In this document: positions 33,146-37,672 of the stretch, one piece after another
Numbering within the stretch: the first letter of the stretch is position 1
How the letters are laid out: each line of letters begins with the position of its first letter
NCBI RefSeq assembly: GCF_005082825.1
Contig: NZ_CP034882.1
Coordinates: 581,851 to 645,850 of the forward strand
Direction of reading: 5' to 3'
Length of the DNA stretch: 64,000 nucleotides
From: Buchnera aphidicola (Brevicoryne brassicae)
GTDB taxonomy: Bacteria; Pseudomonadota; Gammaproteobacteria; Enterobacterales; Enterobacteriaceae
Translations under genes and position numbers: made by a program
The notes under the pieces: generated by a model
The model's input: only the letters and a program-made list of their open reading frames with translations
Told to the model about the DNA's origin: nothing
The model's database searches: none

Positions 33146-33693
33146 ATGAAAATCAATAAAAAAAATCTTATTTGGATCGATTTAGAAATGACTGGACTTA
33201 ATCCTAAAATACACCGTATCATTGAAATTGCTACATTAATTACGGATGTTAACTTAAATATCATTTCAGAGGGGCCAGTAATTCCTATATATCAAAAAAA
33301 AAACATATTTTATTAATGGATGAATGGAATTTTATAACTCATAAAAAAAATGGATTAATAAAACGTGTTCAAGATAGTTTATATAACGAACATCGAGCAG
33401 AGTTTGAAACTTTACTTTTTTTAAAACAATGGGTGCCTATTAAAGCATCTCCAATGTGCGGAAATAGTATTGCTCAAGATCGTAGATTTTTATTTAAATA
33501 TATGCCAAAACTAGAAAATTATTTTCACTATAGATATATAGATGTGAGTACTTTAAAAGAATTAATTTATCGTTGGAAATGCAAAAATCAAACTAACTTT
33601 AAAAAAAGAAATAATCATACAGCATTAGAAGATATTCGTGAGTCTGTTATGGAATTAAAATTTTATAAAAAACATTTTTTTAAGTTTTCATAA
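33146..33693 (+). pseudogene. orn: Oligoribonuclease, frame interrupted at an A10 tract
   Basis: DEDDh exonuclease that degrades two-base RNA remnants; essential in E. coli. From ATG 33146 the frame encodes [14 protein letters not shown] and breaks at an A10 run (33294-33303), stopping at 33314-33316. Adding one A joins it in frame to MDEWNFITH and on to 33693, giving 182 residues (E. coli 181). After the break [24 protein letters not shown] and [10 protein letters not shown], with the remaining catalytic residues, are perfect. Essentiality and the lack of other damage argue for rescue by slippage or a base-count error rather than loss. Confidence 0.9.
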
Positions 33694-33977: not shown

Positions 33978-34927
33978 ATGATTTTTTACTCATCCTATAA
34001 ATGGATGATATTTTTTATTTTTTCGTTTATCTTTCAAGTTCAAATTAATCAAAATAAATATTTAAAAAAAAATATTTTAAAGAAAAAAAAGTATTTTTTT
34101 TAAAAAATTTAATTGAACCAAAACACACAAAAAAAGTAATTAAAATATCTCAATCTTTCAAAGAAATACATAAAAAAATAAAAATTTTTAAAAAAAAACA
34201 AAAAATTTTCAGCAGTAGTTCAATTTCATCAAAAAAAATTACTATCCTAATAGACGCCGGACATGGAGGACAAGATCCAGGAGCAATTGGACACAAAGGA
34301 CTTCAAGAAAAAAAAGTTAATATTGCGATAGCACTTCAACTGAAAAAACTACTAGATAATGATACAATGTTTCGTACACTTCTAACACGTAATAATGACT
34401 CTTATCTTTCACTAAAAAAAAGAAGACAATTTTTAAAAAAAAATCAGGTAAATTTATTAATATCGATTCATGTAGATTCCTCCAAAAAAAAATACGTATC
34501 AGGAGCATCTTTATGGATAATTTCCAATAGTAGAATGAACCGTGAAATTAATAATTATGTAAAAAGTAAAAATTCAAATATGTGTTTTTCTCAAACTATT
34601 CAAAATATTTTTAATGAAAATAAAAATGATCTATTTTTAAAAAAAACTATTCTGGATTTGCAATTTAATAACTTACAAAAAATAGAATTTGACTTGTCTA
34701 AATATATATTTGAGCAATTCAAAAAAAAGATAAAATTACATAGAATACAATTAAATTATGCTAGTTTAGGGATATTAACTTGTATAAGCATGCCTTCCAT
34801 ATTAATTGAAACAGGTTTTATCACTAATTTTTTAGAAGAACAAAAATTGAGTACAACTTATTATCAAAATAAAATTGCTAATGCTATTTATTTATCTTTA
34901 AAAAATTATTTTTTACATAAATTTTAA
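33978..34927 (+). pseudogene. amiB: N-acetylmuramoyl-L-alanine amidase AmiB, frame interrupted in the N-terminal region
   Basis: Periplasmic amidase that splits septal peptidoglycan. ATG 33978 has a good AAGGA site and encodes a signal-peptide-like hydrophobic start (MIFYSSYKWMIFFIFSFIF), then stops at 34101-34103. The amidase_3 domain lies in the next frame from about 34082: IDAGHGGQDPGAIG (zinc His), ILIETGFITN (catalytic Glu) and an intact C-terminus. Candidate slip sites are A9 (34064-34072), A8 (34083-34090) or T8 (34094-34101); one added base gives 316 residues. E. coli AmiB has 445, so the AMIN domain was already lost. Confidence 0.87.
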
Positions 34928-35044: not shown

Positions 35045-35254
35045 TTATTTTTTATTAAAATTAAAACGTTTTTTAAATCTTTCAACACGACCTCCAGTAT
35101 CAATAACTCTTTGTTTTCCTGTATAAAATGGATGACATTTTGCACATATATCTAAATTTATATTTTGATTGATAGTAGAAAAAATTTCAATTTTATTTCC
35201 ACAAGAACAAGTAGCAATTATCTTAGAATAATGAGGATGAATTTTTTTTTTCAT
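35045..35254 (-). CDS. rpmE: 50S ribosomal protein L31 (zinc-binding form)
   Basis: 69 residues (E. coli 70). Zinc-type cysteines are all present: Cys16, Cys18, Cys37 and Cys40, with the conserved [25 protein letters not shown]. In E. coli rpmE is followed by priA, cytR and ftsN; here only the ftsN-like gene remains before hslV. Confidence 0.97.
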
Positions 35255-35343
35255 AAGAAAACTCCTTAAATAACAAAAACATATTTATTATGTTATACAA
35301 ATAATAATATATTAATACCAAAAAATCAGCTATTTTATAAAAA

Positions 35344-35596
35344 ATGATGTATAAAAAATATATGTATTATAATAAACACAAAATTGATTCTTTATATTTT
35401 AAAAAAAAAAAAAAAAAAATACGTATATATTATACTAATATTAATAGTTATTTTTTTAAATTTTTTTAATATGAATCGAAAAAATATTTCTAAAGAAAAA
35501 AGTACACGTTTTATAGAAAAAAACAAAAATACTAATATAGTACCTCCTCAGCCAAAAGAAAAATGGAAATACATTCAAAAATTAAAACATTTATAA
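35344..35596 (+). CDS. ftsN: Miniature FtsN-like division protein (no SPOR domain)
   Basis: A short basic cytoplasmic start, one hydrophobic helix (IILILIVIFLNFF), then about 40 polar residues. The C-terminal VPPQPKEKWKYIQKLKHL aligns with E. coli FtsN LPPKPEERWRYIKELESR (residues 75-92), keeping the W83, Y85 and L89 equivalents of its essential segment. It sits directly upstream of hslVU, the place of ftsN in E. coli. The glutamine-rich linker and SPOR domain are absent. The intact frame starts at TTG 35384 (70 residues); ATG 35344 would give 83 residues if the A19 run (35401-35419) is read as A18. Neither start has a clear ribosome site. Confidence 0.75.
35401..35419 (+). repeat. A19 homopolymer inside the ftsN-like gene
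   Basis: Nineteen consecutive adenines, the longest homopolymer I noticed in the window, encoding the lysine-rich stretch just before the membrane helix. Polymerase slippage here would mix all three frames downstream. Confidence 0.9.
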
Positions 35597-35620
35597 AAAA
35601 TGTCTAGTTTTTAAAAACTG

Positions 35621-35648
35621 GTTGAATTAAATAAATAATATTTCATAT
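35621..35648 (+). promoter_or_regulatory. Possible heat-shock (sigma32-type) promoter for hslVU
   Basis: GTTGAAT (35621-35627), a 13-base spacer, then TTTCATAT (35641-35648), compared with the sigma32 consensus CTTGAAA, 13-15 bases, CCCCATNT. It lies about 150 bases before hslV, which is a sigma32 operon in E. coli. The AT-rich background makes this weaker than the ibpA match. Confidence 0.35.
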
Positions 35649-35798
35649 AATGAAAAAATTTTGTTTTAAATTATTTTTTAAAAAGTATTAAAGCAATAAC
35701 TATAAAAAAAGTAATTTTACTTATAAAAAGTAAATTATATTTTATATATAATATATTTTTATACAATAAAAAAACGTTATGTTGAAGAGGCTTTTCTT

Positions 35799-36329
35799 GT
35801 GACGACAATATTAAGTGTAAGATTAAAAAATAAAGTAGTGATCGGAGGTGATGGACAAGCAACTTTAGGCAATACGATTATGAAAAGTAATGTTAAAAAG
35901 ATCAGATCCCTTTATCATGAAAAAGTAATTGCTGGTTTTGCAGGAGGGACCGCAGATGCTTTCACTTTATTTGAAATGTTTGAAAAAAAATTAGCTTTAT
36001 ATCAAGGCCAACTACAACGTGCTGCAATTGAATTAGCAAAAGATTGGCGATCTGATAGAATGTTGAGAAAATTAGAGGCTTTATTAGCAGTTGCTGATAA
36101 AGAAACTTCATTGATAATTACAGGTAATGGAGATGTAATTCAACCTGAAGATGATCTAATAGCTATAGGATCAGGTGGTTCTTATGCTCAATCTTCTGCT
36201 CGTGCATTAATAAATAATACAGATTTGAACGCAAATCAAATTGTAGAAAAATCATTAACTATTGCTGCAAATATTTGTATTTATACAAATCATACTTTTA
36301 CTATAAAAGAACTATTTTCAGAAAAATAA
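35799..36329 (+). CDS. hslV: ATP-dependent protease subunit HslV
   Basis: Peptidase of the HslVU (ClpQY) protease, a proteasome-like threonine protease. It has 176 residues and starts with GTG (35799), with GAGG upstream. The catalytic Thr is residue 2 (MTTILSV), exposed after Met removal; [23 protein letters not shown] and AIGSGGSYA are conserved. Eleven bases separate it from hslU. Confidence 0.97.
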
Positions 36330-36340
36330 GGATTATCTTT

Positions 36341-37672
36341 ATGTCTTCAATGACTCCTCCTCAAATTGTTTCTGAACTTGACAAATTTATTATTGGTCAA
36401 GAAAAAGCAAAAAGAGCTGTATCTATTGCACTAAGAAATCGTTGGCGTCGTATGCAATTAAATAATGAACTTCGCCATGAAATAACTCCTAAAAATATTT
36501 TAATGATTGGACCTACTGGAGTAGGTAAAACAGAAATTGCTAGACGTTTAGCTAAATTAGCTGATTCTCCTTTTATTAAAGTAGAAGCGACAAAATTTAC
36601 TGAAGTAGGATATGTTGGAAAAGAAGTTGATTCAATTATTCGAGATTTAACTGATGCAGCAATAAAAATGATTCGAATCAAAAACATTGAAAAAAACAAA
36701 ATTCGAGTTGAAGAAATAGTCGAAGAAAAAATATTAGATGTTCTCGTACCTACTCCTAAAAAAAACTGGTCTGAAAAAGAAAAAAATGAAAGCCTCTTAA
36801 ATACTATTCAAACATTTAGAAAAAAATTAAGAGAAGGTCTGTTAGATGAAAAAGAAATAGAAATAAATGTGCTAACAACCAGTATGGGTATTGAAATAAT
36901 GGCTCCTCCAGGAATGGAAGAATTAACTAGTCAATTGCAATCTCTTTTTCAAAACTTAGGAGGACAGAAAAAAAATAATAGAAGATTAAAAATTAAAGAT
37001 GCTATTATATTATTAACAGAAGAAGAAGCTGCTAAATTAATTAATCAAGAAGAAATTAAAAAAGAAGCTATTCATGCAGTAGAACAAAATGGAATAGTTT
37101 TTATTGATGAAATCGATAAAATATGTAAACGAGGAGACTCTTCAGGTCCAGATATTTCTCGAGAAGGTGTTCAAAGAGATTTACTTCCATTAGTTGAGGG
37201 TTGTACTGTGTCTACTAAACATGGGATGGTTAAAACAGATCATATCTTATTTATTGCATCTGGAGCATTTCAAACTTCTACTCCTTCTGACTTAATTCCT
37301 GAATTACAAGGACGTCTTCCAATCAAAGTTGAATTACAAGCCCTCACTATTGATGATTTCGAAAAAATTTTAACCGAACCTACTGCTTCAATTACTGCGC
37401 AATATAAAGCACTTATGGAAACAGAAGGTGTTCATATTAATTTTACAAAAGAAGGCATACGTAATATTGCAGAAGCGGCTTGGAAAGTGAATGAATCTAT
37501 GGAGAATATTGGAGCTCGTCGATTACATACGATTCTAGAAAAATTAATGGAAGATATATCTTTTAACGCTACTGAAAATAAAGGTAATACAATTGAAATT
37601 AACTCTAACTATGTTGGACAACATTTAGATCAATTAATATCTAATGAAGATCTAAGTCGTTTTATTTTATAA
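36341..37672 (+). CDS. hslU: ATP-dependent protease ATPase subunit HslU
   Basis: AAA+ unfoldase feeding HslV. Started at [20 protein letters not shown] (36341), giving 443 residues, exactly the E. coli length; the longer open frame overlaps hslV and does not align. Walker A GPTGVGKT is at residues 57-64, Walker B is VFIDEIDKI, and the C-terminal tail DLSRFIL that docks into HslV is intact. Confidence 0.97.

Follow-up and report, generated by a model that had tools for sequence, protein, structure and literature searches.

A probable shortened FtsN orthologue and a possible FtsQ-free module of septal activation in Buchnera aphidicola

Investigating a stretch of 64,000 nucleotides from Buchnera aphidicola (Brevicoryne brassicae), in the following called the window, we observed between rpmE and hslVU a short gene which we hold with good confidence to be orthologous to ftsN but to consist only of a start module, a membrane helix, a linker and the essential domain, and whose product (mini-FtsN) would switch on FtsWI. 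In the same assembly, the first 3,500 bases of the second contig match a plasmid of the Brevicoryne brassicae Buchnera with 99.9% identity over 98%, compared with 81-85% for the records listed next. The original prediction, namely that selection has pared FtsN down to its essential domain, is supported by homology, synteny, strict retention of the residues W, Y and L, selection acting on the segment and the lack of a SPOR domain. We give an even chance to a wider proposal derived from the sequences: mini-FtsN would form part of a minimal septal activation module working without FtsQ, in which FtsN, FtsL and FtsB are cut to their activation segments and a Lys at FtsL position 88 biases the module towards the ON state; mini-FtsN would be lost along with its docking site or with a change of FtsB E56, and expression of the trigger would depend on slippage in many strains.

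The open frame of mini-FtsN (35384..35596, forward strand) begins with TTG, encodes 70 amino acids and stops with TAA at 35594-35596. According to the ORF listing and the letters themselves, its C-terminal end is VPPQPKEKWKYIQKLKHL (35540..35593, forward strand), which corresponds to residues 75-92 of E. coli FtsN and retains W83, Y85 and L89; these are Trp61, Tyr63 and Leu67 of the 70 residues, exactly as had been claimed. This segment is preceded by a variable periplasmic linker (35468..35539, forward strand) and by a presumed single membrane helix, YVYIILILIVIFLNFF (35420..35467, forward strand), read from the sequence and visible by eye as an N-terminal hydrophobic stretch in the alignment of the Buchnera homologues. 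Syntenic markers are rpmE (ribosomal protein L31; 35045..35254, reverse strand), hslV (35799..36329, forward strand) and the frame at 36341..37672 (forward strand; ATG at 36341, the listed frame beginning at the upstream TTG 36275), which we take from its sequence to be hslU. The position between rpmE and hslV/hslU agrees with the ftsN position upstream of hslVU proposed originally and matches E. coli MG1655, in which ftsN lies directly upstream of hslVU and is separated from rpmE by cytR and priA. Using our own handles for genomes (G) and loci (L), the rpmE-hslV gap was delimited at 28 of 30 Buchnera loci (the rpmE pattern failed in L023 and L024, which were not delimited), and L034 has the same arrangement. 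The motif W.Y...L alone is not rare, with six matches in the window against a mean of 5.8 in shuffles; the fuller motif P.P...W.Y[IVL]..L is present a single time and did not appear at all when the whole window was dinucleotide-shuffled 200 times. Scanning 35200-35830 for promoters and terminators yielded nothing exceeding shuffles.

The 36 genomes of the genus comprise 31 with mini-FtsN (L001-L030 and L034), three (G004, G018 and G024) without a legible copy in the rpmE-hslV gap, as well as G003 and G029, which were left out of the mini-FtsN reading; because of the three relatives without a legible copy, mini-FtsN cannot be regarded as indispensable. All 31 genes, found beforehand by similarity and cut out with the pattern W.Y[IV]..L..L-stop, which dropped none of them, share a common end position. 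In E. coli, the essential domain of FtsN is given as L75-Q93 (PMC8998562, PMC10390529); the Buchnera protein spans the equivalents of 75-92 and has its stop at the equivalent of 93. W83, Y85, L89 and the final L are invariant in all 31 homologues, with synonymous variation at invariant positions (TAT/TAC for Tyr, TTA/CTA for Leu), and positions 75, 76, 79, 80 and 86 show one or two exceptions each to the commonest residue. The alignment across Buchnera genomes, suggested as a check in the original prediction, bore the expectation out: besides W, Y and L being kept in 31/31, dN/dS was 0.081 in the segment versus 0.534 in the aligned linker (helix region 0.383; Nei-Gojobori, 45 close pairs). In the Buchnera of Pemphigus obesinymphae (L113), the one record named Buchnera among the best 80 of 543 in a named-genome HslV scan that may omit close kin of the window, no mini-FtsN motif was found between rpmE and hslV; this Buchnera has been reported to be without the peptidoglycan pathway (PMC9116674).

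The gene had initially been placed at 35344..35596. The frame and its end at 35596 stand, but the start at 35344 lies in another frame and the span crosses a break in a run of 19 A (35401..35419, forward strand). Immediately 5' of this run, which is a candidate slippage site and has counterparts in A runs of the homologues, a conserved cytoplasmic start module, MYYNKHKIDSLYF (35362..35400, forward strand), is encoded in a frame differing from that of the rest of the gene, so that its ATG at 35362 and the earlier same-frame ATG at 35344 are joined to the remainder only via a frame change. In 13 of the 31 genes an in-frame ATG yields 79-84 codons (an earlier ATG in L020 yields 90), whereas the other 18, the window's included, have no in-frame ATG yielding at least 75 codons; seven of these split genes possess a later in-frame ATG, 27-52 codons ahead of the stop. 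In relatives such as L009, L018 and L020, the start module (MY...NKI.S.YF) and the remainder of the gene share one frame. The longest A run ranges from 6 to 19 in split genes and from 8 to 13 in intact ones (Mann-Whitney P 0.03, ignoring phylogeny), as determined over a fixed stretch, just beyond which L014 has a run of 17 A. Since 18 of the 31 homologues are without an intact start frame, we only infer that a mini-FtsN product is made in the window's strain; in genomes with a split frame, RNA polymerase slippage at the poly-A run, or another start, would supply it. An assembly error in the long A runs of these loci is conceivable as well. A broken Buchnera gene corrected by transcriptional slippage, as cited in PMC3164680, likewise combines a frame change at a homopolymer with a possible correction in the mRNA, but for that gene the correction has been published, whereas the rescue of mini-FtsN is our own inference. 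In a Buchnera transcriptome study, none of the transcription errors was found to restore a frame (PMC5574713).

A start frame that is not intact in 18 genes, and the lack of a legible copy in three genomes, could also be explained by a decaying ftsN pseudogene, in which the segment lingers by chance, the poly-A break marks a dead gene and the lineage losses represent the end of decay. We consider this unlikely: besides the low dN/dS, the invariant W, Y, L and final L and the one end position in all 31 homologues, 10 of the 18 split genes still have a start module that can be read in a different frame, and the segment ratio over all pairs is 0.223 for the 18 split genes versus 0.219 for the 13 intact ones, therefore constraint is not visibly relaxed by the frame break. 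A plain pseudogene was rejected on account of this purifying selection on the segment, which is equally strong whether or not the gene is split.

If mini-FtsN is made, its mode of action might be deduced from E. coli, for which a model places FtsN L75-P79 on the FtsI head and W83-L89 between FtsL (residues 86 and 90) and FtsI (residues 86 and 168), with FtsN position 84 pairing with FtsL E87 (PMC10390529). Position 84 is K or R in 27 of the 31 homologues and FtsL E87 is retained in 34/34 Buchnera motifs. A short fragment of the essential domain suffices for division of E. coli when overexpressed (PMC9525312), and FtsN 1-119 has been cited as sufficient (PMC5013485). As in the E. coli model, the mini-FtsN segment would be expected to dock on the FtsL AWI region and on the FtsI neck; in the simplest reading the docked protein would switch FtsWI on. 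Without a SPOR domain, its recruitment would depend on the FtsL/FtsI contacts and the start module. The residue D5 of E. coli FtsN, important for midcell localization through FtsA (PMC9525312), cannot be clearly matched to a residue of the Buchnera start module, which in the homologue alignment is conserved but different; a KDY[VI] start is retained by the FtsN of many other symbionts.

The partner proteins FtsI and FtsB were each found in 35 of the 36 genomes and are both missing in G024. FtsL was sought beside ftsI (loci read: L073-L102 and L193-L197), and 33 of the 35 ftsI-bearing genomes have its motif WRNLI[IL]EK[NY], which spans the AWI residues R82, N83, L84, L86 and E87 (PMC7733951); the exceptions are G004 and G018. 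In 33/33 cases the FtsL stop follows 16-27 codons past the W of the motif, i.e. after the equivalent of residue 96-107, mostly 97-100, whereas E. coli FtsL extends to residue 121. FtsB frames end at about residue 66-79, 5-18 residues past the control region (counted by hand in the 34 genomes with a legible control region). In E. coli, FtsL strand 115-118 and FtsB strand 83-88 join FtsQ (PMC10076392), and the Buchnera FtsB ends lie before the latter strand. FtsQ itself was found in none of the 36 genomes at E <= 0.1 with the E. coli protein as query, a search run with no positive control; it is given as 0% in Buchnera by PMC10591338 as well. Loss of the FtsL tail is not harmless in E. coli, since cutting FtsL at 90 or 100 caused a more severe growth defect than cutting at 114 (PMC10076392). 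In several Buchnera genomes ftsL is split at an A run, between the helix/coil part and the WRNLIIEKN part, similar to mini-FtsN.

At FtsL position 88, all 34 Buchnera with a legible motif have K, whereas E is found in 27 of 28 legible FtsL of other genera (35 genomes searched, resulting in 30 loci), the exception being K in G215. The superfission substitution E88K in E. coli FtsL lowers the dependence on FtsN (PMC7733951), and a model has FtsB R70 in contact with FtsL E88, in a region regarded as inhibitory (PMC10390529); by hand count, the frame stops ahead of residue 70 in 20 of the 34 Buchnera FtsB. FtsL K88 may favour the ON state. Taken together, the early stops of FtsL and FtsB, the missing FtsQ, K88 and the partner defects described below suggest an activation module that is minimal and works without FtsQ: FtsL and FtsB would have come to do without their FtsQ-binding tails, and FtsN without SPOR, leaving FtsL-FtsB-FtsWI-mini-FtsN.

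The three genomes without mini-FtsN show defects in its presumed partners. G024, besides its missing FtsI and FtsB, has only a chance-level match to FtsL (E 0.018, inside a 559-codon frame). The other two, G004 and G018, still have FtsI. In G004 the AWI motif occurs in no frame and FtsB is interrupted before the control region; G018 carries a diverged FtsL motif, WRELMIEKN, and R at FtsB position 56, where 32 of the 35 ftsB genomes have E or D (the others being G018, the interrupted G004 and G013). In E. coli, changing FtsB E56 to A, V, K or G bypasses FtsN (PMC8998562); G013, however, combines FtsB N56 with a retained mini-FtsN, counter to the co-loss pattern. Of the 35 ftsI-bearing genomes, 30 entered the comparison of FtsI residues: Y168 is Y in 29 and L in G004, and V86 is V in 27, I in two and L in G018. 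Since G004 has unique changes at 7 of 192 otherwise conserved FtsI columns, the chance for one named column is about 0.04; G018 and G003 have 7 such changes each and G029 has 6. In a tree of HslV/HslU (375 residues; support under 80 in 17 of 33 inner branches) G004 falls among mini-FtsN-retaining genomes, and the best tree takes three changes to explain the losses, while counting only well-supported branches still takes two or more. Fisher's test of mini-FtsN against partner co-loss resulted in 1.7e-4 (31 retained, three lost, without G003 and G029), a value computed post hoc and ignoring phylogeny, for a pattern that was noticed after looking and rests on three genomes. G003 and G029 both retain the AWI motif of FtsL.

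These data also bear on the possibility of a peptide that is produced and does derive from FtsN, but acts mainly on a class A synthase (PBP1b) instead of FtsWI. The E. coli segment was indeed shown to interact with and activate PBP1b in vitro, and it did not bind FtsW, FtsI or FtsBLQ (PMC8998562), which speaks against the docking described above. Nevertheless, pbp1A/B is listed for only 66% of 38 Aphidinae Buchnera (PMC10591338), compared with mini-FtsN in 31 of the 36 genomes here, and retention of mini-FtsN tracks the FtsL motif and FtsI; PBP1b as main target therefore appears rather improbable to us.

Concerning the identity of the gene, a genus search with its last 54 codons matched 32 of 36 genomes at E <= 1, of which 31 contain the true gene; the match in G004 (E 0.03) is a chance similarity at another place in the genome and was discarded. 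NCBIfam FtsN models match all four mini-FtsN proteins tried, with E values between 6e-6 and 3e-3 and the matched part lying inside positions 14-92 of profiles 299 or 319 long, and are the best match in three; with the window's own protein, a polymerase model unrelated to FtsN scores slightly better (0.0013 vs 0.0014). The equivalog cut-offs were not reached (17-26 bits for the four proteins, compared to 107.65 for TIGR02223 and 525 for NF008179), which is expected because mini-FtsN amounts to about a quarter of the protein, and a Pfam search gave no match above cut-off for mini-FtsN. A profile built from Buchnera alone (13 of the 31 sequences, no E. coli row) found as top whole-genome match a frame of ftsN size, 296-347 aa, in 10/10 free-living relatives (E 9e-9 to 3e-7); in one of these (G213) the matched 336-aa frame also bears a SPOR domain. 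Aligned by hhalign with E. coli FtsN, the Buchnera profile covered residues 53-91 with 96% probability and E 2.7e-9. A named-genome scan with the mini-FtsN profile produced 26 stretches fitting a pattern, none of which was confirmed. An unrelated small membrane protein or an hslV leader peptide with an FtsN-like end by chance, for which the short, AT-rich sequence, the NCBIfam scores far under the curated cut-offs, the polymerase model and the Pfam result might speak, is hardly credible and was rejected in view of the synteny with E. coli ftsN, the 10/10 profile matches, the hhalign result and the truncated FtsN of various lengths that lie mostly upstream of hslV in other symbionts.

The putative Buchnera ftsN product shares with E. 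coli FtsN its gene position, a presumed membrane helix and the LPPKPxExWxYIxxLE segment with W83, Y85 and L89; the E. coli protein, however, has 319 residues with a long linker and a SPOR domain, whereas the Buchnera protein stops at the position of residue 93. A search for SPOR (PF05036) gave no match in the window's own genome, as originally proposed, and none in 3/3 further genomes of the genus; the same search was positive in 6 of 14 control genomes, E. coli included, and in 6/6 controls with full-length FtsN. A SPOR domain elsewhere in the genome was rejected on this basis. Because no SPOR domain was found, we call mini-FtsN a putative truncated orthologue rather than a full FtsN.

Shortened FtsN is not restricted to Buchnera. 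A family-wide search matched 304 of 392 genomes (of the 88 without a match, most among the 20 listed measure 0.6 Mb or less), from which 27 genomes of 0.5-2.0 Mb were hand-picked as a sample of other symbionts, leaving out G113, G114 and G152 (matches of 1.6-1.8 Mb). In 17 of the 27, belonging to 14 genus labels, some of which may be further Buchnera lineages, the FtsN frame ends 2-88 residues past L89; of the remaining genomes, five have a full-length FtsN and five are without the motif by the pattern used. An HslV motif follows 92-634 bases downstream of the truncated FtsN in 14 of the 17. Five of the 17 end at most six residues past L89. Among named genomes, FtsN ends three residues past it, as in Buchnera, in Candidatus Gullanella endobia (L168, whose protein is identical to that of L042) and in Serratia symbiotica PERIS-14S (L140), while S. 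symbiotica SCifornacula (L190) retains an FtsN frame of 276 codons. From these sequences the recurrent truncation near the end of the essential domain looks convergent. Eleven of the 17 genomes lack SPOR; the other six (G073, G135, G316, G183, G215 and G165) carry it in a different protein and offer a useful contrast to Buchnera.

The idea of a pared FtsN is not new, since the same kind of truncation was published in 2016 for Serratia symbiotica SCc and STs, with most such shortenings said to be common in small genomes (PMC5013485). As in Buchnera, most of the protein has been lost in an insect endosymbiont; however, that account concerns another symbiont and, in the part available, draws no link to a truncation of FtsL or FtsB and does not name the FtsN of Buchnera (PMC5013485). 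For Buchnera, a 2023 review gives ftsN as present in 0% of 38 Aphidinae strains, states that the obligate intracellular bacteria it covers, Buchnera included, encode no homologue of FtsN, and infers that septal wall synthesis is switched on by alternative mechanisms (PMC10591338), and the Buchnera wall has been stated not to appear generally to support division (PMC9116674). The portions of the literature covered by our searches contained no description of mini-FtsN or of a matching FtsL/FtsB truncation in Buchnera. New here, as read from the genomes, are the early stops of FtsL and FtsB, the failure to find FtsQ, FtsL K88 and the apparent co-loss of partners in genomes without mini-FtsN. If mini-FtsN is real, the gap left by the review for ftsN in Buchnera closes: the ancestral trigger would have been kept and cut almost exactly to the essential stretch defined in E. 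coli, as if evolution, in Buchnera as well as several other lineages of symbionts, had redone the deletion experiment. The early stops of FtsL and FtsB and the co-loss at residue level would then provide a natural test of the key contacts in FtsWI activation and of the dispensability of FtsQ.

Two further genes of the window deserve mention. Amidases of E. coli produce denuded glycans, the ligand of SPOR, and upstream of rpmE the window contains an amiB amidase domain in a single frame (34241..34927, forward strand; positions 194-418 of the 445 of the AmiB profile). A short ATG frame at 33978-34103 stops in A-rich sequence ahead of it, and the start of amiB (33978-34927), too, may be split or lost. 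Further upstream, the adjoining frames 33146-33316 and 33316-33693 look like one gene spread over two frames, perhaps that of oligoribonuclease.
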